Part shown: positions 1-25,400 of the stretch, in pieces | Layout: the number at the start of each line of letters is the position of its first letter | Numbering within the stretch: position 1 is the first letter of the stretch | Assembly (NCBI GenBank): GCA_963855995.1 | Contig: OY979723.1 | Location: forward strand, 9,367,013-9,431,012 | Length of the DNA: 64,000 nucleotides | DNA from: Muricea muricata | Taxonomy: Eukaryota; Cnidaria; Anthozoa; Malacalcyonacea; Plexauridae | Direction of reading: 5' to 3' | The notes under the pieces: generated by a model | The model's database searches: none | Told to the model about the DNA's origin: nothing | What the model saw: the letters and a program-made list of their open reading frames with translations, nothing else | Translations under genes and position numbers: made by a program

Positions 1-2259
1 ATGAAGGAAATGAACAACTGGCAATCAAGGTAGGACAACTGATGCATTATCATTAACCTGGCAAGCAAACGACCTGGCTTTTCGACTAAAATTGCGAAAA
101 TTATTAATAATTTTCATTAATTGTGTGGGAATCACTTTACAGTATCACTTTCACATGCATGCATCTGTAAACCTAAATAAAGTTCAGTAATATGACGCAC
201 CATGAATTGTATTAAAGTTAACGCAGAGTTGGTATCAATAATTATTCTGTTTTTTCATGCATTTCACAAGTACGTTATAATACTCGCGACATATCTGTAT
301 AGTTATTAACAATAATGATTCGTGCTATGCACTTCCTAGTGTAAATATTACACACAGATCGATCGCGAGTATTTTATAGCCATTACTTGTGAAATTAATT
401 TATAATGCGTGCAATAGTTACTTAATCAATATCTATAATTGACTTTCTAACCAAATATCATTCATCTCTTTGAGATCATTAAAGAATGAAAACGTCGTTT
501 TTTATCTCCACAACTAACAAGACTAGCACGATATAGCATTTGCATCAGATCTTTATGAGTGCTTGTTGCCTTGCAATGCTGTTCATCAAACCAATATAAG
601 ACGACCCGCTTATGGAATTGTAGGGCAGTATTTGAATGAATGGATGACTACTTGCAACAAAGGACATCCCCCCTAAAGAGGGTCGTGAGGGGTAAAATGG
701 GATTTGGGGATGGGATAAGCAACGATGGTATTTCATGCCTTGGGGCGCTAGGATTTAGTCAAACATGGACTGTGAAACTGGGATTAGGACCTCCCCTTTC
801 GCGACCTCCTTAAAAAATCTACCAATGAACAGAAATTAACAATCTTACCATGGTATCGTTGTAGGATGCTGTAATTACGCCATTATTGAACGTGCTCTTT
901 TAGATCAGTTCCGGAAACTCTGGAGGAAAGAAATTATTTTTTGTCAACTGTGGTATTCACTCTCGTGAATGGATCACGACCGCGACCTGCATGTACATGA
1001 TCCGAGAGGTATTGAGGAGTAAAAGACATTTAGTTCATTTTTGTATAAATAATTAGATAGGATTTGTGGAGAAATCTCGAAAATCTTGACGCAAAATCTT
1101 ACAAGTCGATAGAGAATCTCGTTGGAATACTTCGAAAGTTGGAATTTATGTCATACAAATTCCTCGGACGCTGCAGTCCCTCGGGTACTTGGCATAAATC
1201 CCTGCTTCACGTTATCTCTTCCTTCAAGAACTCTAGTTACGGCTTTGCACAAATGTAATAAGATTTTGTAGCATTTTATTCCATACAAGATAAATATTTG
1301 TTTGTTTTCTTTTGCGACGAATTATTCATACAATATTTGCAAAACCATAACCGTAAAGTTAAGAAAATCAGCAGCGCCGGCAGGAATCAGACTTACGCCA
1401 CAGTTCTGTATTCAATCTTTCAGATGTTAACAAAATACAACCAAGACTCCAGCGTGAAAAGTATGGTTGATAAAATGGATTGGGTGATAATGCCTTCTCT
1501 AAATCCTGACGGATACAAGTACACTTGGAACGGGGTAAGATCTGAATATTTTTTTAAACCCCGAGGAACTATGTGTCTGATTTATTATAAGTAAACGCAT
1601 GCTTTGAGGGATATTAGTGATTAAATGTCCCGTAAATCGAGGGAGGTTTAGTAAAAGTTTACTAAACCTCCCGAGGTTTAAGGGACATTTAATCACTAAT
1701 ACCCTCAAAGCATGCGTTTTGTAATAACATGATCGCCGAGGAAATAAACAATGCATTGACGCTTTTGTTTAACGAAATCTTCGTATTGAATTCGTTCGGT
1801 GGTTAGAATATTTACAAGCACCAGTGGCGTTCAAAGCTATGCGTTTAGTATAATAAGTGAGACAATAAAGCCATTGAAATTTGTGTGTAATTGAATTTGT
1901 TGTTTTAGTTTTGTTATTAATGAATATTGGATGAGGGATATTTAGTCTAAACGTCCCTCATGAATACATTGATGAGGGACGTTTAGAACTAAATATCCCT
2001 CATCCCTGTGGGGGGGGGGGGGAGGAAATACGTCAGTAAACGTCCCTGTTGAAACAAAAGAAACCGAGGCGATCATGTTATTACTTGCTGAAACATTGTG
2101 TATTAAAGTAAAACCCTGTGCAAAAATGAAAATATTACTTTTCCTGACAAAAATATTACTTTTCCTGGGGAAAACTAACTTGTCTCACGACGGTCTAAGC
2201 CCAGCTCGCGTTCCCCCTATTGGCGGGTGAGCAATCCGACGCTTGCGAATTCTGCTTCG

Positions 2260-2297
<38 letters not shown>

Positions 2298-4009
2298 AAC
2301 CTCGCTATGAACGCTTGGCTGCCACAAGGATCATCATTGTATCCAAACTTAATTATTTGATTCATGTTATGCAGAATCGAATGTGGCGTCGAACACGCAC
2401 AAGACACGGTAGTTGTATTGGCGCTGATCCGAATAGAAACTGGAATTACAAATGGGGAGGTAATGTTCCTCCAATGTGTCCAACACTTTTATTATGACAC
2501 AACGATAAAAATATATATAGCTGAAAAACTTTCTAAATGAACATTTTTAACTGTACATAATGATGATTTTGTCGCATTTCACTCAATGGGTAGACATTCT
2601 AAAAGGCAAATGTGTCTTAATTCTAGCGGAAATCATTCACATATCGAACTTCAAGCTGGCAAGAGTTGAGAGAAATTCATCCTCAAATATTCTTGGGTTT
2701 CACGTGACGTCATAAATTTCACTGGGGGTCAACCCAAAATCGACACACAGTCATTGGAGGGCAATGATTATTCACTGTATGTGTTGAACTTTTGCCTGGT
2801 AGCAAATATGTGCAACTTCGTGAGATTTGTTCACTCCAGTACAGTATAATCATCAATACATTTTGGGTTGATCCCCACTTAGATTTACTGCAAAATGCCG
2901 TGGTGAAACCCAAGAATAAGTCTCTCGACAAGGATCAAACCTATGCCTTTAGTGGTCAGACCATTGCACCGACATCGCAAAAAGGTACGAAGTAGGTTCG
3001 ATTCCTTCCGAGAACGCATAGTTGATGATGAATCTTTCTCGGCTTGAATTCCAGCGCCTCTATGATCATAACTGCACAATCATAACCTACATATGGTAGT
3101 ATATTGAGATCCAATTTAGCTATCCAGTTTTCTAAAGTTTCCACTTAATTTATCACTCAAATTGGTTTGAAAACAACATTTGAACACGGCCGCATTATTT
3201 TTCAGGTGTTGGCACCAGCTCTTCATGCAGTGATACGTATCACGGGCCCAGGCCATTCTCCGAGGTTGAAACTTACAATGTCGCAAAATACTTGCTGAAA
3301 CAACGCAGGAATCTGATTGGCTACATGGACATTCATGCATACAGTCAATTGTGGATGACGCCTTGGGGGTACAAGAAGGCATATCCCGATGATAATGGGG
3401 AGCAGGTAGGTACATTTGTGGATTTGTTTTTGGACATTTGCTTCAGATTTGTGGAGCATTGCTTATTTTTTAGGTGCGCGTTGGCAAGATTGCAGCGACG
3501 GCGCTCAGGAATGCCGGATATGGCACACAATATAACGTCGGACCCTCTTCCGTCATTATTTGTAAGTAGTGGAAAAAACTGGTGACCTAACTAGCGTTAC
3601 TAAGGGACCTTAAGCTGTGCAACGGCAACACGACGACGACGGCTAGTAATGCCATGAATTTAAAATTATTGAAAAAGACATCGCCAAGGAGAGTTGAAAA
3701 CATCGTCTTTTATCTTTCAACATGATTTTTTACTTCGGAAACAATGTTCCTCTGTATTTCTATTTGTTCAATGAACACGGATTTATTTCTGTTTATTTTT
3801 TCATTCTATCTTTTTGCACTGCAGATGCGACAACTGGTTCGACCGGGGATTGGGCCTCGGGTGTTCTGGGGGTGAAATACTCGTACGCTCTAGAGCTCCG
3901 GGATAAGGGAAGATACGGTTTCCTACTGCCAGCCAATCAGATCATTCCAACAGGACATGAAACATTCGCTGCCATGAAAGCAATGGCTAACGCCATGAAA
4001 ATGTCTTAA
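1..4009 (+). CDS. M14 zinc carboxypeptidase, gene A (5' end outside the window)
   Basis: Exons I assign: 1-29, 904-1008, 1424-1534, 2375-2459, 3206-3405, 3474-3561 and 3825-4009, all with AG/GT borders and one continuous frame giving about 266 residues. The product would remove C-terminal residues from peptides (M14A, pancreatic carboxypeptidase A/B type), probably as a secreted zymogen. Seen: the first two zinc ligands in HSREW (exon 904-1008); an Arg127 equivalent in NRMWRRTR and an Asn144/Arg145 pair in ADPNRNWNY (exon 2375-2459); the third zinc ligand in [16 protein letters not shown] (exon 3206-3405); Tyr248 created across the last splice junction; and the catalytic Glu270 equivalent in [11 protein letters not shown]. 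The residue equivalent to bovine CPA 255 is Gly (TGDW). The leftmost 29 bases encode the end of an exon (EGNEQLAIK). Signal peptide and propeptide must lie upstream. Exon phases match those of the paralogue at 13,411-27,806. Family assignment is secure; substrate preference is inferred. Confidence 0.93.
1585..1727. repeat. Foldback element in a gene A intron
   Basis: Near-perfect palindrome with arms of about 65 bases. The left arm (aaacgcatgctttgaggg onward) is mirrored by the right arm ending in ccctcaaagcatgcgttt, and the centre is gtttagtaaaagtttactaaac. It lies between the exons ending at 1534 and starting at 2375. Consistent with a MITE-type insertion. Confidence 0.75.
1929..2005. repeat. 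Short hairpin repeat
   Basis: Inverted arms of about 32 bases, from ggatgagggatatttag to ctaaatatccctcatcc, followed by a run of G at 2010-2022. In the same intron as the larger foldback at 1585. Confidence 0.7.
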
Positions 4010-4069
4010 TTGATTTTCGTATTATTGCTGTAATCTACATTGAGATATGTTGTCATGATTATGAAAGCA

Positions 4070-4075
4070 AATAAA
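4070..4075 (+). promoter_or_regulatory. Poly(A) signal after the first terminal exon of gene A
   Basis: AATAAA lies 61 bases past the TAA stop, and further AATAAA copies follow at about 4080-4090. This would let a transcript end after the Gly-type exon. Confidence 0.6.
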
Positions 4076-4127
4076 GAAAAATAAATAAAATTTTAAAAAT
4101 AAAATCGTTCCCATGCATGTAATTTAA

Positions 4128-4440
4128 ACGGCAGATTTTCGTGAAGTGTTTTTGAAACGAAATTTTCTCCAACGATTTATCGATTGCATTGAAAAATCAG
4201 TTAAAATCACACCATAATTCTTTGACAGAATTTTTGTCTTACTTTTCGAGATACTCAATCTTATTGGATACGAAAATAACACAACCACCGACTTCATTCT
4301 GCATAATGACTTTTCAAAAAGCTTCATTCATTTAAGAAGTAGTTAAATATTACACATAAATTACCAGGCCTGGATGTCAATCATATGCAAGTGCAGTTTT
4401 AGTTATTTTACATTCTTACATCACGAAATGAGCAATCTCA
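4128..4440. repeat. Single arm of a dispersed foldback family
   Basis: This stretch (gaaacgaaattttctcc ... cttacttttcgagata ... ctgcataatgacttttcaaa) is a diverged copy of the left half of the inverted-repeat element at 40255-40759. It lies between the two alternative terminal exons of gene A. Confidence 0.65.
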
Positions 4441-4463
4441 TCTCTCTTTCTGTTCCTGCATCG

Positions 4464-4509
4464 TGATTCAGGCTCAACAATATTGCACAACATTGTTGAG
4501 CCTGAATCA
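4464..4509. repeat. Short perfect hairpin
   Basis: tgattcaggctcaacaat is followed after a short loop by attgttgagcctgaatca. It lies in the spacer between the two terminal exons of gene A. Probably transposon debris; an RNA role is possible but unsupported. Confidence 0.6.
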
Positions 4510-5544
4510 GCCTGCAATCAGGTGTTAAAATGCAGAACTATATTGTTGACAACTGGGAACAATGTTGCTCCCAATAAAACAATGTTGCATCCTGTTTTTA
4601 GCAACTTCTTATTTCTTACCTTGTAGAAGAGGACTCGTATGTGAAATAAATGAATAACTGCACTGACGAGATGTTGCATATGCTGTAATTTAATTAGCTT
4701 CTCTGTCTACACAGCTATTTCAATTAAGTTGTCTTCCCAAAAATGCAAACTGTGCAAGGGACGATGGGTTATTGTTATTTAGGAGTTACATTTGTAGCAA
4801 GGTAATGTACCGTCGTAAGTTTCCTATGTGCTCTCGATGCTGTTTGAAAGAATTAATTCCGAGTTAAAGGTGAAAATAAGTGATAAATCGTCACAGTGGC
4901 GGATCTAGCGTAATAAGTCAAAATAAATTACCACAGCTCATTCTACGATATATTTACATTTTAAAATACCTTCAAAGCAACTTCATTGGTTAGATTTTAT
5001 TCTTTTGAAATTCATAACCTATGACATTGTTATAAAGCTATTTTGAATTTAAAATTGAGCTGCTATAATTTATCTTGACTTACCCTGGATCCGCCACTGA
5101 CCCGTCATTCCTTGCGCGCTCGTAGTTTGCAGTTTCTGATTTTAGAAGGACAACCTTCGTTGAATTGGCTGTATATAAATCAGTAGATATCGGTGAGCAA
5201 AACAATCATTTTCCTGGGACGAGATTCGACTTCATGAATTATCAATTCATAGAAATTGAAAGCAAATGATCTAATTCGCTTCTTCCCCGAACAAGGATCA
5301 TGTACTATAAATGTATGATTGCAAATACCAGAGCAGTAGCAATATAAAACGGTAATGGGGGGGGGGGGGGGGTTATTCATATATCTATGCTTAGGGCGAC
5401 AAGTTTCTTTTCACATCAAACCCAAATTTATCAGGAACAGAACATTGTTCTTGTAAGTCATCTAAAATTAAAATAGAAGCAATCGACATATCAGATATAA
5501 AACCATTCGGTAAAACTAAAGTAAATTGAACTTTCTTAACACAG

Positions 5545-5726
5545 ATGCAACGTCAGGGGCGACAGATGACTGGGCGTATGGTTTTCTCGGAGTAAAGTAC
5601 TCCTACGGTTTAGAACTCCGGGACAAAGGTCGCTACGGGTTCCTACTTCCAGCGAACCAAATCATCCCGACAGGAGTCGAGACGTTCGCAGCTATGAAAG
5701 CAATGACAGGAGCTATGAAATTGTGA
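5545..5726 (+). CDS. Second, alternative terminal exon of carboxypeptidase gene A
   Basis: A complete last-exon copy begins after a pyrimidine-rich acceptor ending in acag and keeps the same entry phase as exon 3825-4009: a single T from the preceding exon plus AT restores Tyr248. It encodes 59 whole codons and TGA and has its own AATAAA at 5753. Compared with the upstream terminal exon I count 10 differences in 60 aligned residues, several in the stretch that lines the S1' pocket. Position 255 is Asp (TDDW), as in carboxypeptidase B, instead of Gly. The catalytic Glu in [11 protein letters not shown] is kept. It is either an alternatively used 3' exon or the surviving end of a partial tandem duplication; no other carboxypeptidase exons lie between 4,010 and 5,544. 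The intact frame, splice site and poly(A) signal favour use. Confidence 0.8.
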
Positions 5727-5752
5727 AAATAGTGTATCTCTGAGGTTAACTG

Positions 5753-5758
5753 AATAAA
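5753..5758 (+). promoter_or_regulatory. Poly(A) signal after the second terminal exon of gene A
   Basis: AATAAA lies 27 bases past the TGA stop of the Asp-type exon. An independent signal supports separate 3' end formation for the two exons. Confidence 0.55.
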
Positions 5759-6169
5759 ACTTACATTGAAATTGATTTTCTGATTCTCTACTGATTCAGA
5801 AAACCCAAAGAGACATTGCAATATCTTTCTTTTTCGGTCTTATTGATAATAACCTTTGAAGCAATTGTAATATCGATTGAAATTTTTCGTTGCATGCGTA
5901 GATTCTAAAATATTGAAGGACCAAGACACTAGGTCTATTTTAATAGACAGGACAGATTTGAAAAAACTTTGTCAAAAATTTACACAAGAAGTATAAAACA
6001 TACAAATACAGTTGGATTTTAAAAATGAACATATTTGCAAGATTGCTTCTTTAAGAAAAGAATTTTAACCTGTTGTGACGTCAGAGATTTTTTTGACAGA
6101 TAACTATTATCTTTGTCCTTCTTTGTTCTTTAATATTCCAGAAACTAAGTACGCTATCAAAAATTTAAC

Positions 6170-6740
6170 AACGTATATTAGAGTTACTTCAAAAGTTCTT
6201 ATCATTAAAGGGAAATGGCAACGAAAATTTTTATTGTCTCATTTCGTGAGACTCTAAAATAGTATGTAGAAGTATAATGCAAAATCTTTATATCTGTTTT
6301 ACTTCGAGCGATATTCTCACCTAAATCATCGAACTGTCCGCCATCTTGGATTAATTTTTAACCTCATTAACAATGTTTTGGTGACGTCACAACAGGGATA
6401 AGCCATTCAAAGCTTCTCCTAAATACCTACCACCAATAAAATATTTGTGAAACCTTTTCAGTCCGTGCTGAAATCCGAAACACTTACCTTGTGTGTGGTT
6501 ATTGGAGAAGAGTAATCATTACGTCGTAAGAAAAAAAATTGCGTGACCCCAGTTGTGACGTATCACATATATCCACAAATATCCAAGATGGCGGACAACT
6601 AAAGATTTTAAGTCAAATAAGGCAGATATAAAAAATCTGCAATATATTGTCTTGGAGTCTCTTTCAAATAAGACGATAAAAATTTTTGTTGCCATTTCCC
6701 TTGAAGCTAAAAAATAGGCTGCCCAATCCCTTTAATTTGA
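6170..6740. mobile_element. Foldback/MITE-like element, about 570 bp
   Basis: Left-arm sequence aagggaaatggcaacgaaaa at 6213 and the block tgtccgccatcttgga at about 6337 both recur inverted on the right (tccaagatggcggaca at about 6581, ttgttgccatttccctt at about 6687). The centre contains inverted TGACGTCA-like sites. No ORF is present, consistent with a non-autonomous DNA transposon. Confidence 0.65.
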
Positions 6741-7667
6741 TGAAATCCGTCATTTGTTATTCTCATTCTTTAACCCAAACAATCATATCTGAGTAACAAA
6801 CTAATCGTAACTAAATTCGAAATCATTAATTGGTTTCTCCGCTTTCCCACGAAGATATGCTTTCCATGACACATTGTTCTAATTAAAGGCCATAATTGCT
6901 ATTAATTACCAAATTAGCATTTATTAATATAAAGATTATATGTTAAATTTATTTCTAATCAACACGGCTTCTCGTTATAGAACAGATCATTCAGGTTAGT
7001 TGTATTTACATGCTGACAGTCACTCTAATCTGTTCTCTGTAATATCACTCAATGCATTGTATGCTGTCCGATTTCTTTGCTGTTCTTGTTGTTGATGTAG
7101 GATTACGTGTGACAGTCAGAATTGGTAAAAAAACCCTTGAATCTCGGGAACTTAGATTATAGAGTTGCTTGTCAATCGTCCGTCATTTTCCATGAAAATA
7201 TTTCAAATTTTTCAGAATCAATTTCATTTCTGATAACGTGAGACAAAATTTGCTCTCTTCGACAATTCAGTAAACAACCACTGTCATGGGTGCTTTTGGT
7301 GAGCTGTAATGCGCAAATGACATGTATTGCACACGCATTTTTGCTTGTGCAAAGACCAACACATGCTATGAACATTTGATTCACTCTGATGTCTGTGTCT
7401 CGATTCAGAGTTGACCCCAATGAAATCTATAACGTCATATGAAACTCAGCAGAGCGGCAGAACGACTGTCTCCCTAAATTCTTTTTAATATTGTACTTTT
7501 ATTAATAAAGTTTACTAATTAATCTTTTAATATATAGTATTTTAGCGTAAGAAGAGCCACGTATGTGGAATATGCTAATAAACCTCTATTATTATTATTA
7601 ACGGCAATATGCAAGCAGAGTTTTCGAAATTGAGCATGGAACCTTTACCCCCTTGTCTTTACAACAG

Positions 7668-7876
7668 GTGGTATGGCAGCGGAGTGTTTGAGGTACCACC
7701 GTAGATTGGCTGAGTTAATCGCTGACAAGAAAGCCGAAAGCAATGCCGATACCATATCCTGGATCAGAGCAAAATTGTCCTTTGCAATTCTGCGTTCGGC
7801 CATATTGTGTCTTAGAGGGTCAAGAAGAAGATCACCATTAAACATTACTGACCATGATATGAACTTGCATGGATAA
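7668..7876 (+). pseudogene. Transposable-element ORF fragment
   Basis: A 67-codon open stretch encodes a peptide with the segments LAELIADKK and [14 protein letters not shown] followed by LCLRGSRRR. From memory this resembles the C-terminal part of a retroelement or transposon ORF that is repeated in many invertebrate genomes; I cannot name the family. There is no start context, no upstream domain and no splice-linked neighbour, so it looks like a decayed fragment. Confidence 0.45.
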
Positions 7877-8667
7877 TATTAGAGCGTTTTTAAATTGACT
7901 CTATGCTTTTTCTATTTTTAAACTAATTTTTGACTTTAAAAATGCACAGAAGAAAATATGGAAATCTTTTTAGAAGATTTATTAGTATTTTTTTATAATA
8001 AATCATTCTTATATTAAAAAAATAAAAAATAATTATTAGTATTACATGGTTCCCGCGCGCTATGAGAAACATTTTAAACAGGCAAACCCAAGATCCGATA
8101 AATATTAAACGGTTTGTCTTGTCTGGAAACATTTTAAACATTTGCCGACAATATTGTAAACGATTAAACTATTTTCTCGTGTTGTTGGAAAGGCAATTTT
8201 TCTACATTTCACACATGATTATCCGGCTGATATTCAATATTTGAAAGTCGAACCTTCTTGTAATGCAGTAACGGCCTTTCTCTAGGAGATGAACTAAAAT
8301 AAGCGAACTTTATTAGAGTTTGGCAAAGAAAAAGAAATTTTGAATGCACAGCTTTAACATTCAAAACATAATCATCGATTTTAGAAGCGCTATATATTGT
8401 TATGAAATGATTTTAGTCCATTCCTGGACATTAGCTAACAAACAAGCTGTTTCAAGTTTCTATCATGAATATTTCTCTCAAAATTATGCATACGAAACTT
8501 AAGCACAAGACACACTCATTCTGGTAACTAATCAACAATAAGAATTAACAATATATTTTTTCGGTCAGGGAAAACTGCCATGACAGCACAGTAAAATTAT
8601 CGTCCGATAGCATTAGAAACTAAAAATATTACATTTTAACACTGGACCCCCTTAAAGTCTTCCCACG

Positions 8668-8828
8668 ATGATAGCGAGCTTAAGTCGATGATGCGAACGT
8701 CAAAGACGACGTGAAAATGGCGTCAAAATGGCGTGGCATGTCCATACATGGGCACAGCAACCATTTTCACGGCGTTATCGACGTCTTCAATGCGTCCGCG
8801 TCGCGTGATCTTAAGCTCGCTAACATCA
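8668..8828. repeat. Foldback repeat
   Basis: Imperfect palindrome of about 160 bases. Outer arms are gatagcgagcttaag and cttaagctcgctaacatc; inner arms share cgtgaaaatgg / ccattttcacg. No ORF of its own. Confidence 0.65.
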
Positions 8829-9099
8829 GGAAGAAACACCGCCGGTGATAAAAACATGGAAAATGAACACCCGAAAGATTTACCACGTCTAATAAATTAC
8901 AATATATATGTTATCAACGCCCACATTTGGCCATCACGTTTCTCTCATGTCATAAGATATCAACCTAGTTCCTACGTGGAAAATTCCATACTAAGTGTCT
9001 TGAAAACAGCTATGAACTAATCGAGCTTAACAATGCAATACATATTAAATTTGTTTCCGTAGTTGGAGTTTGCTTATGTACATATACTAGTGCTGAACA

Positions 9100-9790
9100 A
9101 ATAAAAGATGATTTGCACTAAACCGTTTGAAGCAAAGTTTAGAACTGATAGAGTTAATGTACTAGAAATAAAGTTAGTTTAGTCCACGTTTACCATAACA
9201 ATGAATAAATATGAGATGTCCCTTAATGACGTTTTGGAGGAGACAGATACTGAACTGATAGAGCAGTCCTGTACGGATGAAGTTAGTTTAGTTTGGGTTT
9301 CCTGTTCCAGTCACTGGATAATAAAAGATGATTTTTAAATGACCTATAAATAGAATAGTTAAGAACCGATAGAACAGCCTAGTATAAATCTAGTTTAGGT
9401 TATGTTTCCGCCTGTAGTAAACACTGGATCAAATAGAAGTGATCGATCCTCACTGGAACACTAGGGAGAACACATTTAGTATATCCAATCCGTATATACA
9501 CCAGTACTTCAGTATATGGAGCTTGTTTAGCTTATAGATTTTCTATTATAGTAGAACCAGATCAATGAAAGCTGATCCTTACTGGCAGGAAGAACAGTCT
9601 AGAGCTGATAGAGGCATAGAGCTATCCAATATAAATGAAGTTAGTTGAGTTTAGATTTCTCCAGTAAGATATGATCGTTACTTGATCTCTAGAAAGAATC
9701 ACTTACAATTAATAGACCTATATCTAGTATAAATATAGTTGACAAATAGATGATCCTTACCAGATCTCTAGGGAGAATATCTGATACAAG
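9100..9790. repeat. Degenerate tandem repeat tract
   Basis: The blocks aataaaagatgattt, agaactgatagag, aatgaagttagtttag and gatccttactgg / tctagggagaa recur several times with a period of roughly 110-150 bases. Units are heavily diverged. No coding potential seen. Confidence 0.5.
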
Positions 9791-10803
9791 TAATGGCATT
9801 TTCCCGAAATACAGAGATACGATGCCCCTCCCTTCCTAAAAACAACAAACGAAATAGGATTGGTTACAGTTGCTTGATAAAGATGGAGAGTATACCTTTA
9901 CAACCATTTAAAATAGCGGTGTTCCGCCGCGGAAATATCGGTTTCGTCAGTAGTGAGTGATAGTGGTGCTAAATTGGTCCACACTTTGAGATAAGAACAA
10001 AGCCCGGCAGTTTACAATCTTAAAACCGCAAATCTTGAGATAACCTAAATTGCATATCTTTGCTCATTTCTTCCCATCCGTTATACACATGATTTCAAAG
10101 ATTTCACGTCCAGTGGGACTCGAATTCAAATGGAATGCAGTCGATTGATTTAAATATCAAAGATTGTTTCAGTTTACTCCGTGTTCGAGTCTCGCGTGTA
10201 ATAGTATAAGGATTATAACATAAGGGCATTGTGTAAAAATAGATCGGAGTGTGATGATACGTGTAAGATATTGGAAGTGAGTCAATTTACTTTCCATAAA
10301 TACACTCGCGTGCATGAAAAGGTCAAGATCGCAAGATCAGTCGGATATAGCTTCATCTCCTTTCTGCGGAGCGGTTCACGTCATAGCAAAAAGGGCCCAC
10401 AGATGTACACATTGATGGTTGTCAACCAAGTCCCTAGCAACGGGTAACATTTTTAAATTTTAGCAATTTCTATGTATGAGACGTTCAACGATCGCTGCAA
10501 ACTATTCTTAGATAATGCACACTTAAACCAAGTTCTGAAGTAGAAATGAAGAGAAAATAAAGCGTCCGATATAAGACGTACAAGAACAATGAATACGAAG
10601 TTAAAATAGTAACGATTCTAATGAAAACTTTGCCCGTAATTCTCGTATGTAAACCTGATTTACACTATACGACAGGTCGCATGCCTTTCTTAACCTGGCG
10701 TATGTGATTGAGTGAGTGCACGTTAAGATGTCACATTTCACATCTTGTCTCTCGTTGATAAACAAAAAAAATGATGCTGTAAGCAGATATTTTCATACGC
10801 CAG

Positions 10804-10880
10804 GGGCAGTTGTTCAAAAGCCAGTTTTAGCTTAACTCTGGGTTAACGTAAAATTGAAAGGAAATTTCCCATCAGCTTAT
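10804..10880. mobile_element. Partial copy of the 'ggggcagttgttcaaaagc' MITE family
   Basis: The terminal sequence ggggcagttgttcaaaagcc followed by ctctgggttaac matches the ends of fuller copies near 42820, 55577 and 61035. Only one end is recognisable here. Confidence 0.55.
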
Positions 10881-13410
10881 TTATAAACTTGGCTGAAAGA
10901 CTGCTCAGGACATTCTTCGCATGTTCGAAGTTCCTGTGACCAGAGCACGAATTTTGGAGTCGCCGAGATCTTCGACAGACACAACATTAAAGGGCCAATA
11001 CGCCAGACACATTTTTCAAGACAACACATCCAAAAGTTTTAACTGGAATAACCCCCTCTCTTCAGTTATGTCAGAAACTGTAATGGATTAACTTATTAGA
11101 ACACTTAAAGAAGAAAGCTACAAATACATTTAGCTTATAGGAATTTTTGATATGTTGAACGTAAATATATAATTGTTGTAAATACAGTTTCGGTATAGGT
11201 TTACAAATACAGTATAGTAATTTACAGATCAAAAAGACAAAAACCACTCGTTACAGGAGATACTGTAATAAATTTATTGTTGTTATCATTATTAAGCTCC
11301 ATTTCCTGAGCAATTTTCTTCATTTTTATCAAATTAAATAGTCTGTGAACTCATTTCATTAATTATCATCTGGTACTAACTTTCAGGAAATTGATTCTTA
11401 CAAAAGTTACAACAAAAGTCTGAATGAATGATCTGGAATGTTTACCCGTGAATGACATAAGACAACACGTACAAATCCCCCATGACTATTCTGTCTGTTT
11501 GACTGGAAAAAACTTTGAAATCGATAGTATTAAATAGACCTTTATTGCAAGTAAAAAATGTCTGGGAAATCAATGGCTTCTAGCAAAGTCCATAGCAATG
11601 AGTCGATATTTCTATTTTATGGATTTGCAATTTTTCCCAGCGTTTCTAGTTGCATAACGGACATATTCTATATGAGATGACTTTAAGTGGATGGATAAGA
11701 ATTAAAGTGCAAGAATGATACCAAATTAAGTATGTACCAACGATATAAATACTGATAAGTCCCTCTTAAAGGGTTGGGTTGGTGGTCATTTTATTGGCAT
11801 CTAAGGGGGGCGAGCTCTAAACTCTGGTTAATACCAGGCGATCTAATTGATAAACGAGCGATATCTGCTTGGAATAATAAAGTTCACACATGGTTTTGCA
11901 ATGTACACAGCACACGCTTGGATATTAATTTGTTTGTTTAATGGACAATATGTCGTAATATTTTCAACGGATAATGTCAATATCTGTTCTATTAGTTGTT
12001 TTCATCATGACATCTCCACGATGTCGGGTATGACTCCTGTCGGTTCGAAATTATGGCGGAATGCCTTTCAAGATCTCACTACCGGAACATAGTAATCAAA
12101 TCGTCACAGTCGTTCTGCATCGAGGGTCTTAATGAAGCAAACTTGGGGTTCTTGTTCGAGATACTAGACTGTCTTCATTATTGAAATAACTATAGCCTAG
12201 AAAGATAAAGGTAACGCTGACGCTTTGAGAAAAAGGCCTTTATCTAGAGCTCGGTAACCAAAAAAGGCTTCGATCACGGCCCAGACAAATGGTCTTGGTC
12301 CAAAACGTTCTCATTATCTTTTTCAGGTAGATCACAATGAAGACAGGTTATTGGTGCACTAATGACTTGAGACATTATGCAAGTTGTGTCATCTTCGAGT
12401 CTCCAGCTGAGGGCTATAACGCAAACTGACCCACACTTTCTGTAAAATCATCTTGTCATCGGGTACGTACTGAACTGTGAACTCTACGAACCGGAGTCGC
12501 GCAAGTAAACTGGAATGTCGTATGACGAGAATTATCAGTTCGCAGAACCATCGAGAGGACATGTTGAGAACAGTCGAGAGTCTGTCACAGAAGACAAATT
12601 GAGTTATAGCTCGAAGACTGTTGCTCATAAAATCATATAGCATAAAATAACTAACTTTAACGATGTAGTGTTGTGGTCACGACTCTTCACTTCCAAGCTG
12701 GGAGGCGGGGGCTCAAGCCTTGGTCGGACTCAAGGTTTTGAGATAATTGAGGAGAAAGATCTCTACGGATTGACATGGGTGGTAAGACTACATTTCTCGG
12801 ATAAGGATGTTAACTACCGTACTATAGCTACTTCGGATGCCGTATCAGTTGGGCAACAGCTTTACCGTAGGCAAATTAATCCGCTCACTCGAGAGTGAGG
12901 AGGAACACAATAACATGTTCCCAAGCGAGGGATCCAGTTTTTCGAATCCAAGTCCGTGCACTCCGGTCTTTGCATTGTATGACGCTGATGACGTACTTAA
13001 ATCAAAGCTTAAAACTGCCGTGTTGGATGGGTTGCCCAAAGAGTTAAGAAGGACACAGAAGAGAGGAGATCGATAAAATAACAGACAACGGCAGTCGCAG
13101 AGGTAAAGTAAAGACATCAGGACACTCGTGCAGTCAAAGTACAAGGCATTGTTCCCTGATATTGTCCCCCTCGTTGGATGTGGTTAATAAAACGCACATC
13201 AGGAGGCACACAGTGATCTAAGCAACGTTCTCCCGTGGTATTTTGCGCACATTCTGGCACGCAGAGAAGTTAAAACACAGTTTGACGTATTTCCTATCGC
13301 CAACCTATAAAGAGGCAGGATCATACGCGACACTGCGTTACATTCTGCTCGGAAGCGGAGAGAAGCAAACTTGGCGAAAAGAAGATTTAGATAACTTAAG
13401 ACATTGAAAG

Positions 13411-16400
13411 ATGTGGTCATCAGTCCTGCTCCTTCTCTTAACGGCTTCAGCAGCGAAGACGAATGATTTTTATGGAGATTTTTATGAGGGGTAAGTGAAG
13501 CTAATAATTTTACACAAGACCAATTTATCCGAGCATGTTGATTGTCAATTGCACACAAGACTTTGGATGCTTGATATTTATGTATTATTTTAACAGAATC
13601 GTTTAGCAGAAAATAAGCTTTCTATTTTAAAGTAGTAATATCTTGGTAGTCTTTTAGTAAGAAAATTCCAGCCCTCAATCTGTAATCGCTTTGAAATAAT
13701 TTTAACATGCAATTCACTATTTTGTTCTTCTGTTCAATGTAGCTCAAATGCTCACATTAAATGTTTGCGTTTTTCATTTTGCTGAAACGGAAAAACCTAG
13801 TCACCAATACTGTAATTTAAGGAGATCCAGATATTGATACCTAGTGTAGCAGAACGCAAAGATTAGTTAAGATAAAAAAAGCCCTTGACAACAAACAAAA
13901 AACAACAAACACGTTGTTTGTTGTTGGAGGCACGTTCCTAACTAAGCATTGGTGATATAAAGCCCTTCATAGAAAACTTCCAACATGGCTTTGATTTGAA
14001 TAAGGCGAGAGTTCCTTTATATGGCTTGCTGTCTCTGCCAAAGATGGAGTAATTCGCGGAACAGCGCGTTCAAACGCACGCACGGATATAAACAAAGCGC
14101 GCAAGTGATTATCAAGTGGTTTAAGAACTAAAAATGCCGAAAGGGCTTTCCATGTCCTTATTTTTTTAAGCGTCCCCCACACACACGGATATAAACAAAG
14201 CGCAAGAGTTAATCAAGTGGTTTAGGAACGAAAAATGCCGAAAAGGTATTCTATTGTCCTTATTTTTTTAAGCGTCGGTGGTATCTTAGAGAAGGAAACA
14301 TGGCTAAAACATTGGGTATCAAAATGCTTCATTTAATGAAGTTAGTCGTATATAGGTAAGATTGAAGAAACGAATAAAACATTGATTTGATTTAAAAAGA
14401 AAGCAAAACTTCTTAAACTCTCTTAATCTTGTTTGCTTTCTATATTGTTCCTCTTTCTTACAAGAGTCTTTCATGGCTGGGTCCACGTAGCCCTCTATTC
14501 AGGTAATTATACGAGGAAAACCCACTAGACATTATTTGTTTGCCTTGCACTGTGACTCTGTGTACAAAAGAAGAATCTTTCTCGTTTAAGTCAGCCTTTT
14601 TATCATAATGATACTCCCAGATAAAAGAAGTGGCATTTCGAGATTTTAGCTCCAGCTCACGGATTAACCAACGCGCGCAACCTTTAAACGCCAACGCTCA
14701 CATTTTGCCAAACTTTTAATTTTATAAAGCTTTTCTTGTGATGATTTTATTCCAACCAAAACGCTGATCACATAACAAATACATGGCCTGGAATTAATGT
14801 CGATGCTCTCGTTCCTTATAAAATCCAGTTGTATCGTGTGTCAAGGAAGGTCTGATTGCCCAAGGGTGTGGGAACTGAAGATCACTCTGCCACTAGGTTA
14901 ATTGATGAATATAGGTTGATATAACATTGAGTAACCCTAGCCATTACTCAATATAATCAAGATCATGTCAAGCATGCGCAATTAGAAGCGGAACAAAATT
15001 TAGCAAAGTCATGGATTGAGTCAATGCACATATATATAGTTCCTTGTGCATGGCCCGCCTTAAAATTGTAACGGAAATGACCATTCGCTTAAGGAAACTG
15101 TATTTTTGCATTTTCTTTCCTTTTAAACGTGTAAGGAGGAACTTGGGCTCATTTTCAAACATAAAACCGCTTTATCTACAGTGAATGCGGTAACAATGTG
15201 GGCTCGATGACGTACATATAACTGCTTCACAGTTGTTGACGTGTTTACAAACGACCACAAATACGTCGCCTATTTCATAGTTGTTTATAACGTTGAAAAG
15301 TGTTTATAAACTATCACGAAATATCTTATCATAGAATAAACAATTGATATGAAATCTTAACCTAATTTTTTTGAACTTTGTTTATAAATTGCTCGAAACT
15401 TAGGATTGAATATCTAGCTGAATTGATATCGTATTGTTCACAATTTGAGGTGACAGAAATGTTTGCGTCACAGCATTTGTACCGTTTTCTGTTGTGGATC
15501 AACTGAAACATTGCAAAGTTTCGAGAAGGACATCAAGGACAGATTTTTTGCACTTTATAGAAATGTATGAATTAAAGGAAGAATTTGACGTTACTGCTCA
15601 TCGCGCATCGTTTCGTGACTGTTCCACTGGGTTAATGACGTGCAAGTTATCAGTCAGAGATAAGGAATGAGTAATGACAGTTTAGAATAACCAAACAGGA
15701 ATATTGCGAAATAATTTTGCGATTTGAATTAATTCTTATTTATCTACTTCATTTCCCGATGCTAATCTGCTGTAGATTGTATAAGAACAGGAAATCGATC
15801 TCATTATAAAATTGGAGCATTCAATTCGCGTTTCCTGAGATTAAAGTGCTTTCGGTATAGAAGATGTTGCTCTTTCAATTTAACGCTAATTGCTGTATCT
15901 CATGAATTGCTTCGAATTATGGGCTTAGTTTAACCTGCAATAAATAGGCCTGTAGTATCTTTGGCAAACCAATAATTTCATCATTTTTAACTGATCCAAT
16001 TAAAGTCTGTTGTATGTGCAATGCGAAACGTTTTTCACACTGAACAAAATGTACTATTTCATTAAATTTTGCAACAATTTCGCGACAGTGACAATTCGAT
16101 TGCATTCTTCGTCCTAATCCAATCAATTAACAATATACAGCTTTATAAGACTTCCTGATTAGCTGACTCGCGAACAAAGCAGTTGCTTTACGAAACAAAG
16201 GACATATGACAACGCGATAGTCAACCACAAAAGGCGTTATCATTTCCAGCTTCCCGCACCGTTTGTGTAATTAGAAAAAGATTACGCCGTTCGATAAGTT
16301 GTGTTTTAATAAGACGTCTCTCTCCAAGCCCAGCGAGAACCGCGGAGAAGTCGACAGTGAGGTTTTATTAGCAGGAATACGCCTTGATTGCTCCTGTCTA

Positions 16401-19400
16401 GATGTCGAACTGGGAATATGGTTTTCAGCTCTTTGTGGGTGACCATTGGAAGTCGATCTTTTAATAAGTACAACTCGACGACGCGCAGACAAAAGCTTGC
16501 ATTGTACATAAGGCAAAAATGCGCAGAATTCTTTTATTGAATGCAAAAAATGTATTTCAAAAGGAAAATATGCTTCTAAGTAGATGCAATTCTTGATAAA
16601 CCCACGCAGATGCATACCAAAGATCGACTGAATTTAATTTACCGGTATCTAGAAAATTCAACTGCTTGAAATGTCAACGAGACGAATCTATCAAGTCATT
16701 CATACTTGAGAAAGCGTGGATTTTTTTGAAACCACGAAAGATCCCCGCTCGATTAGTGTACTCTTTGAATTTAATTTGTAACTCACCATGATCAATTTTT
16801 TTATGTGGCATATGCTGTCTGCTTTATTCTATGGCCACATTGGTTTGTTTATTATTTCAAGAAGGGTAGCCTGCTCGCAGACCCCGCCTGAAAATTAAAC
16901 GGGAAATTACGGATCATGCGACGAGTTTTGTCAGTAGAATTCGCGCTCCCCTGGGTTGAAAATAAAAAATTAAGCAAGGGTGGCGCAAACGGTTAAAGCG
17001 TGTTATGTCTCTCACCACTGAAAAGCACTCATGCTAGATCAGGCGATCGCGTCGTTAATCTCTCCCGTGCTCCGAGGGTTTTTCTCCGCGTACACGGATT
17101 TTCCTTTCTTTCATGCCGATGTCTATAGTGTTCCTGTGTTGCTTTCAAAGTTAGTGGATTTCAATGCCATATGCTAATTTCTCCACCTGCAGTGTAAGAA
17201 ATGATTGATTGTTAATTACTTGCTTATACAACTCATTACAAGTGAATTTCAGCTCAGCAGTTTGTTTGCACAGTCGAGTTAGGGTCAAGCGTCGCTAGGC
17301 ACACAAGAATTCTCATACAGCTGCATTCACACTCACAGATTAGAACCATTAACCACATTGGTAGCATGCTTAAAAAAGACATTCACCGACGCAGTCCATA
17401 ATCCTGAGACCACTCACACCCAATACGAATAATGTTAAATGTGGTGTAACATCCTTAAAGCATGAACCTTGGGCGATTATCATTACACACACGGCTTGAC
17501 CCAGAAAAAAAACTCACAAAATTCTAGCCTAAACTAGCTTCCACGTTTACGCCTAATATCAGATCGAGAGCCTACCACCGTTTCGAATGGTTCTTTCTTC
17601 AAAGCATCATTCTAGTTTTTGAAATACTGGTCACTGACAGACAGGCCTGATAAGCACCCTAATGTTTCGATGTGGTTTCTTAAAAATGCTAGAGCATAGA
17701 TATTACTGGAGTGTATGGACCATTATTGCCTTATTTAATAGCGATCGGAGCAGATTGTTTGTGAAACAATGGTTGTACATGTATGAATTTTGGTACTGTA
17801 CAAAAATAACTTCTGCAAACTGGCTTTGCTAACTGGGGAAAGCTTTCTTCTCATAACGTTTAATCAGACGTTCAATTCAGTATTTTTTCATTTCGCTATG
17901 ACAGAACGCTCAGAGAATTGGGCTTTAGTTGCCGGTATGGATGACGTCATAGCAAGGCGTACTCACGTCTTACAACATCTGATCTGTCTAGACTACGACA
18001 ACAACATGCAGAGCAGGTTGCCAACCTTTTTTCATGTATTATACATCCATGCATGTATGGTTGTTCTATAGAACGTACAAAACTAGGCAGCATCTGTTTG
18101 GGAGGCAGTTGGTCTGGTAAAATGTCATTATATACATGTGTTAATTAACTAAAAAGTTAATAACGACCTGTCGTTGCAGTCACAAAGATATCAGGCGAAT
18201 TAATAAGATAGCCCTATCCACCAGCTGTTCGAAATAATATTCATGTCTGCATTGTTAATTACATACAGCGCAAATGGCCTTATAATTGACTTAAGGTAGA
18301 TGTGTCTGCATTGGTAAGAACGTGATATTGCCAAGGTCAGTGGAGCTCATTGAGCTGCAAACATTGCTTAATTCAAATCACAATGACGAAAGAGAAATTT
18401 ACAAATCCCACAAAGAAATTTAAACATGCCCCCGTCCAAAATCACAATCTTTTGCCTTTTGCTTGGAGCCGAAAATCTTGACAATTACCTGAAACTCGGC
18501 TGTTTTTCTGCATGCTGACATATACCCTTCTCCCCATCCTCTTTCATCAGGGAGCAACTAAAGTACATGTCACATCGAAAGTAGCAATCATTCGGCCTTA
18601 TTTATAGCTACATGATATAATTAATGTTAGACATATCATTATTGTCAAGTTTGATGTGATCGTTAGAATACTAAGCCATCATATCGGACATTGACCTTTC
18701 TGAGATAGAAATCTGGTTGCTTATCTGATTAGAATACAATTATAGGATTCTCACAAATCTTTTGAAAAAATTCTTTTCTTTAATAGTAATGCAAATATTA
18801 TGTATTTTATTTGTAAATGGACTCTAAATCACATTAACAAACTAAATGTACGTTGACACAATATTTAAATTCAACTTGTAAATTATTTGTAAAATATTTC
18901 TAATAGTTTCTAGACCATAGTTTATATATAGGATGTGAGAAAGTTATGAAAATCAATTTTTCAATTTGATGCTTTTACATACTACGTAAATTCTGGATTA
19001 CAAATTATTGCCAACATTTTGCAAACAATTTACAAGTTACATTAAATGTACACACTATGTCGATGCATATTTTGTCTGAAAATGTGATTTACAGTCTAAT
19101 TTACAGATAAAGTGACGGTTATTTACATACAGTGAGGTAAAATTCCAAAAGAATTATTGGAGTAAATATGCGAAAATTAACATTGGGGAAATTAGATGAT
19201 ATGTAAGGATTCGATAAATGTCATAGTTCATTTGTATTTCAGAAAAACTACTGATGCTCTAGCCTTTATATGCAAGGACTCTTAGTGAAGTAGCAATTTC
19301 TAATCCATTTCAGAGATCAAGTCATTCGTGTGCTACCAGACACAGAAAGCAAAGTTGAGGATACTAAGAAAATTTATAAAGAACCAGGACTGGAAAAGGT

Positions 19401-22400
19401 AAGGCATTATTGGTTCAACACGATGTGCTGATATAAAATAATAATATATTTGTATATGATATAAAAAACGTGCTACAATTTATAACACACATGTTATAAA
19501 ATACAATTAATAACATACATGTTAAGAAAATCAAAGTATAATTTTGTGAAAACGAAAATTCATCATCGCAAAGCCTTTTGAGCCGTAAGCTCGGATCTCA
19601 GTGTTAATAAGAATGCAACTAATTTGAATTCTAATTTGAAATAATGGTATTTACGGACCGAAAGCATTGCGATGATAAATTTACATGTTATTTCCCCAAA
19701 ATTATACTTTGATTGACAATCGCCATGCAAACATACAAGGAACTTACTACATAAAAAGAAGTTGCGACAGGGAAGAGGATTATCAGTTTATGTTTCGCTA
19801 ACTCAGGGGTAATAGGGTTCAGAGTTAGATATAAGGTTTAGTATAAGGGTTGGAGAGACATAATTTGATTGCCGGGGAGAGAAACAGGACATTGATCCCA
19901 ATGCTAACACGACACAAAATAATGCTTATGACAAAAAAAAGTTAAGTTAGTTAAGGGTAGTTGCGACGTCACCGGCGTGAGAGTCGAAGAACTAGATTGA
20001 TGGTTAAATATCGATGAAAGATGATCAATGAAAGATGATTAAAATCAGAAGATCTTCAGTGAAAACTTATCAAGTTTTATACTATGAAAATAAAGCCGGT
20101 CATATCATGTTGTATATCATGTTTAGTCTCTGTATTTCTACACAACTGGTTATTTCACAACTTCAGAAACGAAAACTACTGTATTGATCGAGACTAGAAG
20201 GAAATCACGTTAACCAGAGTTAAGTTAACCTGTTGTTGAGCTAGTAGCCCATGGATGATTTAACATGGAAGGGTAGAGTGAGATAAAGACAGGCTCAGAA
20301 GGAACATAAATTAGAGGATACAAAGAACGTGTAAATGACTGAATACATAAACGGAAGGAAAGAAAAAAAATATAAAAAAAACAAATATAGAAATACACGA
20401 GAAAGAAAAGATTTTGAAGAATCACAGATTTCTGAATGTCAGGCCTGTCATGTTTAATAATATCTATCTTAGCGTATATAGGTGCATGTGGTTGCTAGCT
20501 CGACGTAATATTTACTTATCGCCCCTAGCAACAATTCTTAATGCAACGGATGCAAAATTAAGCAGTATTTTGACCTCTAAGGTTATGGGTACACAGTGTC
20601 GTTTTCGAGCGTTTTCATTCGAAACTATTTCATGACATAATTTAATGAATACCAGCATAAACCTAGCTACTGGACAAAAACTAAACACTTCGTGCGATGA
20701 GAATTTTAATTGTTCACATCGTTTTCATTTTGACTGTTGTGAAAACGCTCGGAAACGACCTCGTGACGGTGCGCACATAATCTACTTTCGAAACATGGGA
20801 GTGAGTGGATTAACGGAGAATCACCTTGATCACCGACGTTAATGTAAAACTCTGTATGACCAATCCACTCGATGACATCGTCCAAAAGAGGAAATCGCTC
20901 TTACACTCGCTCGTGCGAATCCATGGCCTCAATTTCGCTACAACCATAGCTGTATCATGCGGAGATCTTATCAAACTTGTACAGTTGTTGATTTGTACCT
21001 TAGAGGGGGCTGTAGTGTTAGTTAAATACACACGACGGGAGCCGTAGCATGATTAAACCTGACTGACCAGAGGGTACTACGGTGATTGTCAAACAAATAG
21101 AAGTATGCAATTAATTTCAACCCCGAAGTTGGCGGAGTTTCACGCTGTTTTGAAACAAACGAGAACTTTCACATCTGATAAAAACCCACTCGAATGTCAC
21201 AACTTGGGAGACATTTCATTTATCATTACAAAACGTATAAGGAATAACTTAGGAGAAGTCCCAGTGTGTCCGAAGTTCCCAAAACACGTTTGGTGATATA
21301 TATATATAATAATACTAATGTATACACAAAATCTGCAAACTTTGTATGGCAATGTTCTGCACAAATTTTATAACAATTTACTAATTTCACTGCTGTGGTG
21401 ATTTATTTATTTCTCATGTGGTAGTTTAAAATTTATTTTGAAATGCAAATCGTCTATTGCTCTACAGCCTCCACTGATACCCCCAGTGTCGGTAAAGCAG
21501 CTGAAAGCACACAAAACGATCCAGTTTGTCGAGGTAGTGAAAAGATCCTTCGATGTTGAGTGCTCCAAGGAAAATTAGTATTTCAAAGCAAACTAGAACA
21601 AAGTCAAACTATCCACAGGCCTATCATACTGCACTCGTGAGGATCAGTAAAGCTGATCCTCGAAACAACTGAACTAACGATGCTGAAATACCAATACCAA
21701 TACCAATAGTAATAATAACTGATGAAATAATAGTAGCATTAATACTGAAATACTAACAATAATAATACTGAAAATAATAATATACTCATAAATAATAACA
21801 ATACTAAAATAATAATACTGAAATAATAATACTCATAATAACATAATGACAATACTGAAATAATAATACTCATAATAACATAATAATAATACTGAAATAA
21901 TAATACTAATAATAACAATACTGAAATAATAATATTGAAATAATAATACTAGTAATAACAATACTGAAATAATAATACTGATAATAACAACACTGAAATA
22001 ATAATACTAAAAATCATATAATAATACTGAAATAGTAATACTAGTAATAATATAATAACACTAAAATAATAATTCATGTTTTCATTTATAATGAACAACC
22101 TGAGTGGATGTATTTTAAAAATCACATTACAAATGTGAATACAATTTTACCAAGACAAAGCGTCTTTTGCAGAATCTGAGTTGTCCCCAAAACTACATGT
22201 CTGCATCCCACCCAACACATCTGGAATGTCCAACTCCCTTAAAAATGCTCCAACCGGCATGACACAACACAGACACAACCAACTACCAATGGAACAACCT
22301 TTGTTGAAACTCGGTGACGTTTTGTGATTTCTTTAACCAAAGGAGAGTAGTTGGTAATTTTCTCATCCTCTTTATTCACCACATTTTTATCCCATGGTAC

Positions 22401-25400
22401 AGAGAGGTCAACAAAGGTCCACCAAATAATAATACTACTAATAATACTGAAATAATAATACTAATCATAATATAATACTGAAATTATGCTGCAACGTATA
22501 ATAATACTTTTTATTGATATAATACTGCATGAAATAAGCATGATTTAACATCATGAAACAATCATGAAGGAATAGTTTGATTACTTATAGTTTTTCGTAC
22601 CGGGCTACTTTACTCAACGATTTCCAATGCTAATATTCAAAATAATCACTTACACTAGCTGGATTCGTGGCTGCCAACATTTCGTCCAAATCATCCGGCA
22701 GATATCTACGCGAAGAAAAAGGAACTCCCAATCATCAAAGAATTCCTGACAAATAGAAGTATATCTTACTCAATCTTGGTAAAGAACGTTACTGAAGCGC
22801 TTCTCAAACAGAGAACGATGAAAAGAAGACAAAGATATCATAAAGGAGTATATGACTATCAGAAATTTCATCCCTTGGACGAGGTGAGGGAAGCACGAGT
22901 TCATGGCCCAAGTGCAATTAGCGAGTTTGCTCTCAGCGAACTGCATGTGTCACTGTGGCCCCGTCCACACGTATGCGGATATTTTTGAAAACGGAGGTTT
23001 TTCCCTCCGTTTTGGCTTTGCGTCCACACGTAAACGGCGTTTTCGGCGAGTGAAAACGGAGGTTTTCGAAAACGCTCTTCAGAGTGGAGGTTTTCGAAAA
23101 CGCCGTTTTTGCGTTTACGTGTGGACGGGTGAAAACGGAGGTTTTCGAAAACGATGACGCAACTGGAGCCTGCGATCGTTTGGACGATCTCATATTACTA
23201 GACAATGCGCATGCTCCACATCGGGCGCAATCATATTTCCTCCGTTTTTGTGTTTACGTGTGGACGGGCGAAAACGATTCGAATACGCTACGTGTGGATG
23301 CGAATTTTTTCAAAAACGGAGAAAAAAAATCCGTTTTTAAAAATATCCGCATACGTGTGGACAGGGCCTGTGACAATCCATAACGTATATTGTAGAAATG
23401 TCTTCAACACAATGAGATTGTCGAATTCAATGATGGAATTTGCCTGAATCTATGGATTTACCAGACATTTTCCATAGTATACCGATAATATAACAATTTT
23501 TATCGCTGGCGAGGTGGTTAGACCACGGGTGCGACTTATAAACTTCTCTGCAGTTGAAAAGAGTACTGGTCAACGCTCTGTCGAGAGTCGTGGGTTTTCT
23601 CCGGCTACTTTGGTTTCTACCCACAGACAAAGTTGACAGGGTAGGGTGGGGTTAGGTAACACGGGCCCACAGTAATTGGCTAACGCTATTGTGGTGACCC
23701 TGCCCTTTAAGGAAGCTTAATAAAAAAAATATGATTGAAAAAAATACAACTTGATTGTCAAGTTCCATAGATGATCTCTCTTATGTTTCGAGGATTATAC
23801 ACAGAAGAATATATTCAATTGCATCTACGTTCTGCCTGTCGACCTCTCTTTTGTATTGGGAAAGTGTCATAAGCCTACATGAAAAGTCATGAAATCGACT
23901 ATTACGTTATGCACATGAGCTTTGTACAAATTGAAGAAAAAAGTAATTTAAAAATAATTGCCAGCCCAGACAGAAAAAAATGCCCAGACTTTCAAGGACC
24001 TTAGAGATTTTCAAGAGTTCGTACATTGTAAAGAAATGCATTTTCAAAGCATTGAGTTGCACCTCAAAAATAAGTTATCTACCTAAATAACAACAATACT
24101 ATCATTTTCTTGCAGATTCATGAAGAGATCAATAAACTACACTCTACTTATCCCAACGTAACAGAAGTCTTTAGCCTGGGACAATCTTACGAGAAACGTG
24201 AAATGAAGGCGATCAAGGTAACTGAAACCGGTTCTTGTTTCTCTTTGTTCTTCAACTCTTGCGAGAAGGTTAGGCTCAGCATTTCAGCAAGGAACAATGT
24301 GAAAACAATCTACTTTTGTCACAGATTTCTTCCGTGGACACGGCGAAGAGAAACAGGCGAATTTTTTTCATAGAATGTGGAACGCACGCTAGAGAGTGGT
24401 TGTCTCCTGCTACATGCATGTGGCTCATTAAAACGGTAATCAGCATGCGATTAAATAAAGCAATTAATGTGAATTTTCTACTCTTGACGGATGGTAATAA
24501 GTGGATTATCGGTAAATCTTCTTGATAGCTGATGCCAGTGCGGTCAGAACTAGTTTCCATCTACGAAATTGATGTGAGGCCACTCTATTCCACTTAAAAT
24601 TGTCGCCAATCTGTTGCTATCTTTTCGTCTTTAGTAATATATCTCGTATAATCTTGTATTCACTCAATAAGAACGAAGAGCTAGCAACAGATTACCGACG
24701 ATGTTGAGTGGACTAGAAGGAGTTCACGTCAATGTCATAGATGGAAATTGTGCTGACCTGCTACTGTGAAGATTCCTGACAAATCCACTCGTTCACATCG
24801 TCCGAAAGAGAGAATGTTGGACTGAAATCTTCTGCCTACTCGTAGTTTAATGTTCTATCTTTCTCAGATTTTGAAGGATCGTGTTTCTGAGGATAAACAT
24901 AAACGAAGAGAAAGATTGTGTCATAAGATTGATTGGGTTATTGTTCCTGTGCTAAATGTGGATGGATATGTACACTCATGGTCAAAGGTAGGTCCAAATT
25001 AATAGTTACTCCAGTTTATAAACATTCATCCAGAATTACCCTTGAAGTCTATTAAGCAATTGTATGTGTAACTCTGCTCTATCCTAGACATGTATTACCG
25101 ACTTCTTCATAAGATTAATATCCTCCATCATCCATCTCTCTATCTATCTATCCACCAATACCCATACTCATCCATTCGTTCATCCATCCACTCACCCATG
25201 CACCTTCTTACCCATGCTAACTCCCATACATTTTTTCTATAACCATGATCAACTTCAGCTGGTTGAAAAGATATTCACGTTTCTACTCGTTCGACTAGCC
25301 ATTAGACTTCAATTTGTAATTATTTATAGAGGGGCTATGACAAAAAGAGAATGCATGAAATTCTAATTCCACTAAAGATTAAAGTACATACAATATATTT

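Follow-up and report, generated by a model that had tools for sequence, protein, structure and literature searches.

Two homologous last exons in a procarboxypeptidase gene of Muricea muricata and their predicted effect on the specificity pocket

MASP-1 and MASP-3, the proteases encoded by the human complement protease gene MASP1/3, differ in specificity. Exon 12 of this gene encodes the protease domain of MASP-3 and exons 13-18 encode that of MASP-1 (PMC7432537), and the MASP1 trypsin domain has been listed as built from homologous exons (PMC4465641). In Drosophila, GSTO2 (GSTO2A/B) has exon 1 in common and alternative 3' exons with 3' UTRs of their own, giving two proteins according to the authors' curation (PMC4195677), and among the human events of tandem-duplicated exon substitution 77 of 236 are C-terminal (PMC9741552). 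As regards carboxypeptidases, the vertebrate CPA, CPB and CPO specificities sit in separate genes; residue 255 is key to M14A specificity, and the form of the pocket further depends on residues 203, 207, 243, 247, 253, and 268 (PMC9925722).

Here, we describe a procarboxypeptidase gene of Muricea muricata (referred to below as gene A), which has one upstream body and two homologous last exons, A1 (proximal) and A2 (distal). The first-pass annotation of this locus proposed that the choice between these exons would switch the specificity pocket, and it knew of no earlier description of such a case. A limited literature search, with most subscription journals outside it, found no alternative homologous last exons in M14 carboxypeptidases; within that search the claim of novelty is thus uncontradicted for M14 enzymes, whereas the general device was already known. 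With a probability of roughly 0.7, we consider A1 and A2 to be a tandem-duplicated alternative terminal exon, which would provide one isoform specific for basic residues (Asp255) and one for neutral residues (Gly255).

The procarboxypeptidase gene and its two last exons

The window, i.e., the whole stretch of 64,000 nucleotides analyzed here, corresponds to positions 9367013-9431012 of contig C8 in a genome of 453 Mb assembled in 74 contigs, and the coordinates given below are those of the window unless a contig is named. Gene A lies on the + strand and was recognized as an M14A procarboxypeptidase by profile and sequence comparison. The Peptidase_M14 profile (PF00246) matched the two predicted isoforms with 319 and 323 bits, covering positions 1-285 of 286 in each case, and the Propep_M14 profile (PF02244) matched the predicted protein with 70.4 bits over its full length (positions 1-73 of 73), which identifies an activation propeptide. 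A signal-peptide exon of gene A was looked for and none was located.

The propeptide is encoded by two exons situated before the window (C8:9364677-9364755 and C8:9365928-9366140). They are followed by an exon which starts about 72 bases ahead of the window and ends within it (1-29; C8:9366940-9367041), its translation ending with LAIK. Further exons, all on the + strand, were placed at 904-1008, with the zinc ligands His69 and Glu72 (HSRE), at 1424-1534, at 2375-2459, with Arg127 and Asn144-Arg145, and at 3206-3405, with the zinc ligand His196 and the pocket residues 203 and 207. The last exon of the body (3474-3561) carries the pocket residues 243 and 247; its final base is the first of the Tyr248 codon, and the donor gtaagt begins at 3562. 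Exon boundaries were placed by eye from GT/AG dinucleotides and reading frame. When the translated exons were read against aligned PDB chains, every one of His69, Glu72, Arg127, Asn144, Arg145, His196, Tyr248, and Glu270 was found, the list of zinc-ligand and catalytic residues and its numbering being those which we take to hold for M14A peptidases.

The presence of two complete last exons, as claimed in the first-pass annotation, was confirmed, and so were the acceptor in the same phase, the stop codon, and the AATAAA which it had ascribed to each of them. Exon A1 (3825-4009, + strand) encodes Tyr248, Ser253, Gly255, Ala268, and Glu270 and ends with the stop TAA, with AATAAA at 4070-4075, 60 nt past the stop. 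Exon A2 (5545-5726, + strand) encodes Tyr248, Ala253, Asp255, Gly268, and Glu270 and ends with TGA, with AATAAA at 5753-5758, 26 nt past the stop. Both are preceded by an AG acceptor and open with AT, which completes the Tyr248 codon begun by the terminal T of exon 3474-3561, and this codon is split identically in the three other genes of the cluster described below. The placement of Tyr248, residue 255, and Glu270 within the duplicated exon was borne out by alignment to the bovine CPA chain 1hdu, in which query positions 6-58 match chain positions 246-297, with one residue inserted between 257 and 262. The bovine CPA numbering used here follows from these matched ranges, on the assumption that the chain index of 1hdu equals that numbering.

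In a repeat search, A1 and A2 appeared as one direct repeat of 183 nt with 74% identity (3822-4004 and 5542-5724). Beyond it, comparison of 3562-4400 with 4401-6100 by blastn gave just matches of 11-16 nt. The locus shows features expected of tandem-duplicated alternative terminal exons, i.e., adjacent homologous exons of compatible phase, each with a stop and a poly(A) signal. Between the two copies, short inverted ends CAGTGGCGGATC (near 4894) and GGATCCGCCACTG (near 5088) are situated about 200 bases apart (4894-5100), and this pair looks like a small inverted-repeat transposon.

It should be stressed that, of the 3819 stop-like triplets which the window contains, 339 (8.9%) have an AATAAA within 70 nt; a single one near a stop carries little weight and a pair of them somewhat more. 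The acceptors of A1 and A2 scored -2.0 and 0.1, respectively, with a matrix built from 14 neighboring acceptors, whose own leave-one-out scores ranged from -4.5 to 7.0, and 16.8% and 7.9% of the AGs in the window, respectively, scored as high. The matrix singles out neither exon and serves as a plausibility check, lending weak support.

Neighboring genes and the search for another gene body

The Pfam search placed four M14 genes within 9.345-9.395 Mb of C8, namely G1 (9345.4-9349.5 kb; positions 9345358-9349490, + strand), G2 (9354.5-9351.0 kb, - strand), gene A, and B (+ strand, mapped so far over window 24116-27806). Residue 255 is Lys in G1 and B, which would predict acidic C-terminal specificity, and Thr in G2; judged from these translations, position 255 has varied within the cluster. 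Gene B ends with a C-terminal tail of 22 residues (27738-27803), Arg-rich and terminating in HHHHND, which is longer than the C-terminal ends of its neighbors in the cluster, and on the 3' side of the gene there is a tandem array of a 96-base unit in 5.7 copies (28793-29340).

A neighborhood of four M14 genes means that gene duplication is common here, and this speaks for the main rival explanation, according to which a downstream tandem copy of the gene lost its body recently and A2 is its leftover, unused last exon, not yet decayed. However, a search with the bodies of genes A, G1, and B as queries (G2 was not among them; word size 2) found no body remnant above chance level, either in 4010-5544 (best E 0.79) or in 5727-20000 (best E 0.68), and the positive control, 880-4009, recovered the body exons of gene A. 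The first-pass annotation had held that its reading would be undermined by evidence of a separate gene, the other exons of which were lost from the assembly between 4009 and 5545. Such a gene is unsupported, as the 1535 bases concerned contain no N and no recognizable body exon, and a separate gene with its body between A1 and A2 was rejected, with nothing above chance found there.

It was also considered that the second exon is an artefact of the assembly or of haplotypes, or that A2 comes from another gene, with a body that is absent or situated elsewhere. Nothing points to this, and a distant body is excluded only via the M14 family search of the genome, which gave at least 35 matches, those beyond C8 being located on C2, C3, C7, C14, and C15; two stretches of C14 compared with the body of gene A gave no clear match (one at E 0.12). 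When the genome was searched with the A2 protein (E <=10), the best five candidates were A2 itself, A1 (83%), G1 (54%), B (54%), and G2 (39%), all of them in the C8 cluster. Since G1, G2, and B each carry body exons of their own, none of them is an obvious orphan in need of an end, and the idea that A2 completes another gene which lacks its last exon was rejected, the best five matches being A2, A1, and three cluster last exons with bodies. An allelic or assembly duplicate was likewise rejected, on the basis of the 74% DNA identity and the saturated synonymous sites presented below, and no N occurs in the 101,012 bases of the joined sequence. We regard an artefact or a foreign origin of A2 as highly improbable.

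As a separate observation from elsewhere in the genome, a mitochondrial COX1 match with one stop was found at C1:38414782-38416095, on a large contig and with COX2-like sequence adjoining; it probably represents mitochondrial DNA copied into the nuclear genome. In the mitochondrial contig itself (C74), AGR is read as Arg at COX2 positions where Arg is conserved, and COX1 and COX2 lie on opposite strands, a combination which fits a cnidarian and, judged by it alone, probably a medusozoan.

Divergence of the two copies and selection acting on them

The two exons had been reported to differ at 10 of 60 residues, and this count was reproduced. At the DNA level, 48 of the 180 aligned coding bases differ (9, 5, and 34 at codon positions 1, 2, and 3, respectively), and amongst the 60 codons there are 21 identical ones, 29 with synonymous differences, and 10 with residue changes. 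The Nei-Gojobori comparison, which is pairwise only and made without orthologues, gave pS of 0.78 (past Jukes-Cantor correction), pN of 0.10, and pN/pS of 0.13, and 8 of 26 fourfold sites are identical, i.e., these sites are near saturation. When the same 48 changes were placed randomly (5000 trials), 29.5 residues were replaced on average, with a minimum of 21, and a stop arose in 76% of the trials. As the synonymous sites are saturated while the protein has been kept, this pattern of substitutions indicates that purifying selection has held both A1 and A2 throughout nearly the whole period that followed an old duplication.

Two separate genes of long standing could likewise show old synonymous divergence combined with an intact protein, and such genes are supposed by the explanation in which A2 has outlived its own gene body. 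In that case, however, the orphaning must be recent. A rough Poisson bound, which does not amount to a likelihood test, limits any neutral phase of A2 to about 4-17% of the time elapsed since duplication; it varies with the number of changes charged to A2 and the divergence assumed, 17% being reached when all 10 changes are charged to A2. Moreover, A2 is the copy which retains Tyr259, together with its acceptor and poly(A) signal. This residue has been lost in A1 (Ser, 3857-3859) and kept in A2 and in seven of seven other sequences, i.e., G1, G2, B, and four PDB fragments, the comparison being confined to these. On balance, a recently orphaned A2 seems unlikely to us.

The loss of Tyr259 may suggest that constraint is weaker on A1 than on A2. 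It also provides the argument for a further explanation, in which one exon alone is functional now (e.g., gene A mainly uses A2, with A1 decaying or seldom used, or the reverse) and the other exon contributes splicing noise. Against this, no stop or frameshift interrupts either copy, both keep Tyr248 and Glu270, and their terminal branches in the tree of the 60-residue exons are nearly equal (0.105 for A1 and 0.092 for A2), thus neither copy looks released from constraint. We find a single functional exon less probable still than a recently orphaned A2. The same tree is uninformative as to the origin of the copies, as it contains no A1+A2 clade and joins A1 to G2+B with a support of 0.42; the identity between A1 and A2 is 50/60, versus at most 32/51 to any other sequence compared.

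The reading of A1 and A2 as alternative terminal exons, proposed in the first-pass annotation, is upheld as far as it concerns intact, same-phase exons which are conserved by selection and differ in the pocket. The use of both exons in mRNA, control by tissue or stage, secretion, and the specificities of the isoforms are what we infer from the sequence.

The specificity pocket and comparison with known systems

According to the first-pass annotation, residue 255 is Gly in the first copy and Asp in the second, and it is indeed Gly255 in A1 and Asp255 in A2. The copies also differ at 251 (T in A1, S in A2), 253 (S/A), 259 (S/Y), and 268 (A/G), as well as by V/F at or adjoining the one-residue insertion and at four positions closer to the C-terminus. 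Two of these residues, 253 and 268, are further pocket positions which the first-pass annotation did not mention, and the loss of Tyr259 in A1 likewise went unnoted there. It had also stressed that five of the ten differences fall within the first 14 residues; the count is correct, but clustering is a weak argument alone (hypergeometric P 0.044), and the test of pocket positions is stronger. All three pocket positions of the exon (253, 255, and 268) differ between A1 and A2, for which P is 0.0035 given 10 differences in 60 residues, with the three sites picked from a published list, and the addition of residue 250, which is identical in both copies, changes the result to three of four (P 0.013). 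The pocket positions of M14 enzymes are variable generally, and the enrichment of differences in the pocket may partly be ordinary divergence.

The remaining pocket residues, Met203, Gly207, Ser243, and Ile247, are common to both predicted isoforms. An acidic residue at 255, characteristic of the carboxypeptidase B type of specificity, is present in A2 and absent from A1. Acidic 255 is taken as a predictor of basic specificity, and in the assay described in the same source Xenopus Cpo.2, an enzyme with Gly255, cleaved FA-Phe-Ala, and the Phe-Phe and Glu-Glu substrates were not significantly cleaved, with the caution that the protein was barely detected (PMC9925722). On the basis of the acidic-255 rule and the result for Cpo.2, it can be predicted that the A2 enzyme would prefer C-terminal Lys/Arg and the A1 enzyme small neutral residues.

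In the mechanism which we propose, the last exon of gene A would have been duplicated in tandem long ago, and its copies would serve as alternative ends of the transcript. Joining of exon 3474-3561 to A1, followed by cleavage past 4070, would yield the enzyme with Gly255, and skipping of A1, splicing of the same exon to A2, and cleavage past 5753 would yield the enzyme with Asp255, the propeptide, the zinc site, and the remaining pocket residues being common to both isoforms. Since the exon carries Tyr248, Glu270, and the pocket residues 253, 255, and 268, its choice should switch the C-terminal preference from small/neutral (A1) to Lys/Arg (A2). The full proposal, i.e., that a single gene provides a carboxypeptidase with either a basic-type or a neutral-type S1' pocket through the regulated choice of a duplicated terminal exon, in an arrangement which is old and held by selection, has in our estimation an even chance of being right. 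If it is true, the substrate class of an M14 enzyme would be set by splicing and polyadenylation, and the locus would offer a compact natural experiment on the extent to which residues 253, 255, and 268 redirect specificity while the scaffold stays the same.

As proposed for gene A, a single upstream body is joined in MASP1/3 to either of two homologous 3' parts, each of which ends the protein. However, MASP1/3 swaps a whole protease domain, belongs to another protease class, and has a known splicing pattern, whereas gene A would exchange one 60-residue exon inside the catalytic domain, and its splicing is predicted from the genomic sequence. Similarly, GSTO2 appears to exchange most of the coding sequence (PMC4195677), and gene A would exchange one exon of the catalytic domain. 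The human C-terminal tandem-exon events resemble what is proposed for gene A in that tandem homologous 3' coding exons are used alternatively, but the human tandem-exon regions, as described there, tend not to overlap ligand-binding sites, whereas the exon of gene A carries catalytic and pocket residues (PMC9741552). Gene A would thus exemplify a duplicated terminal exon placed on the active site rather than on a tail, which is an unusual placement. The Xenopus CPO paralogues, also of M14A, have diversified in specificity at residue 255 and other pocket residues, as is predicted for A1 and A2, yet by whole-gene duplication and not by a putative alternative exon (PMC9925722). Gene A appears to pack this vertebrate-type switch, at the same residue, into the alternative last exons of one gene.
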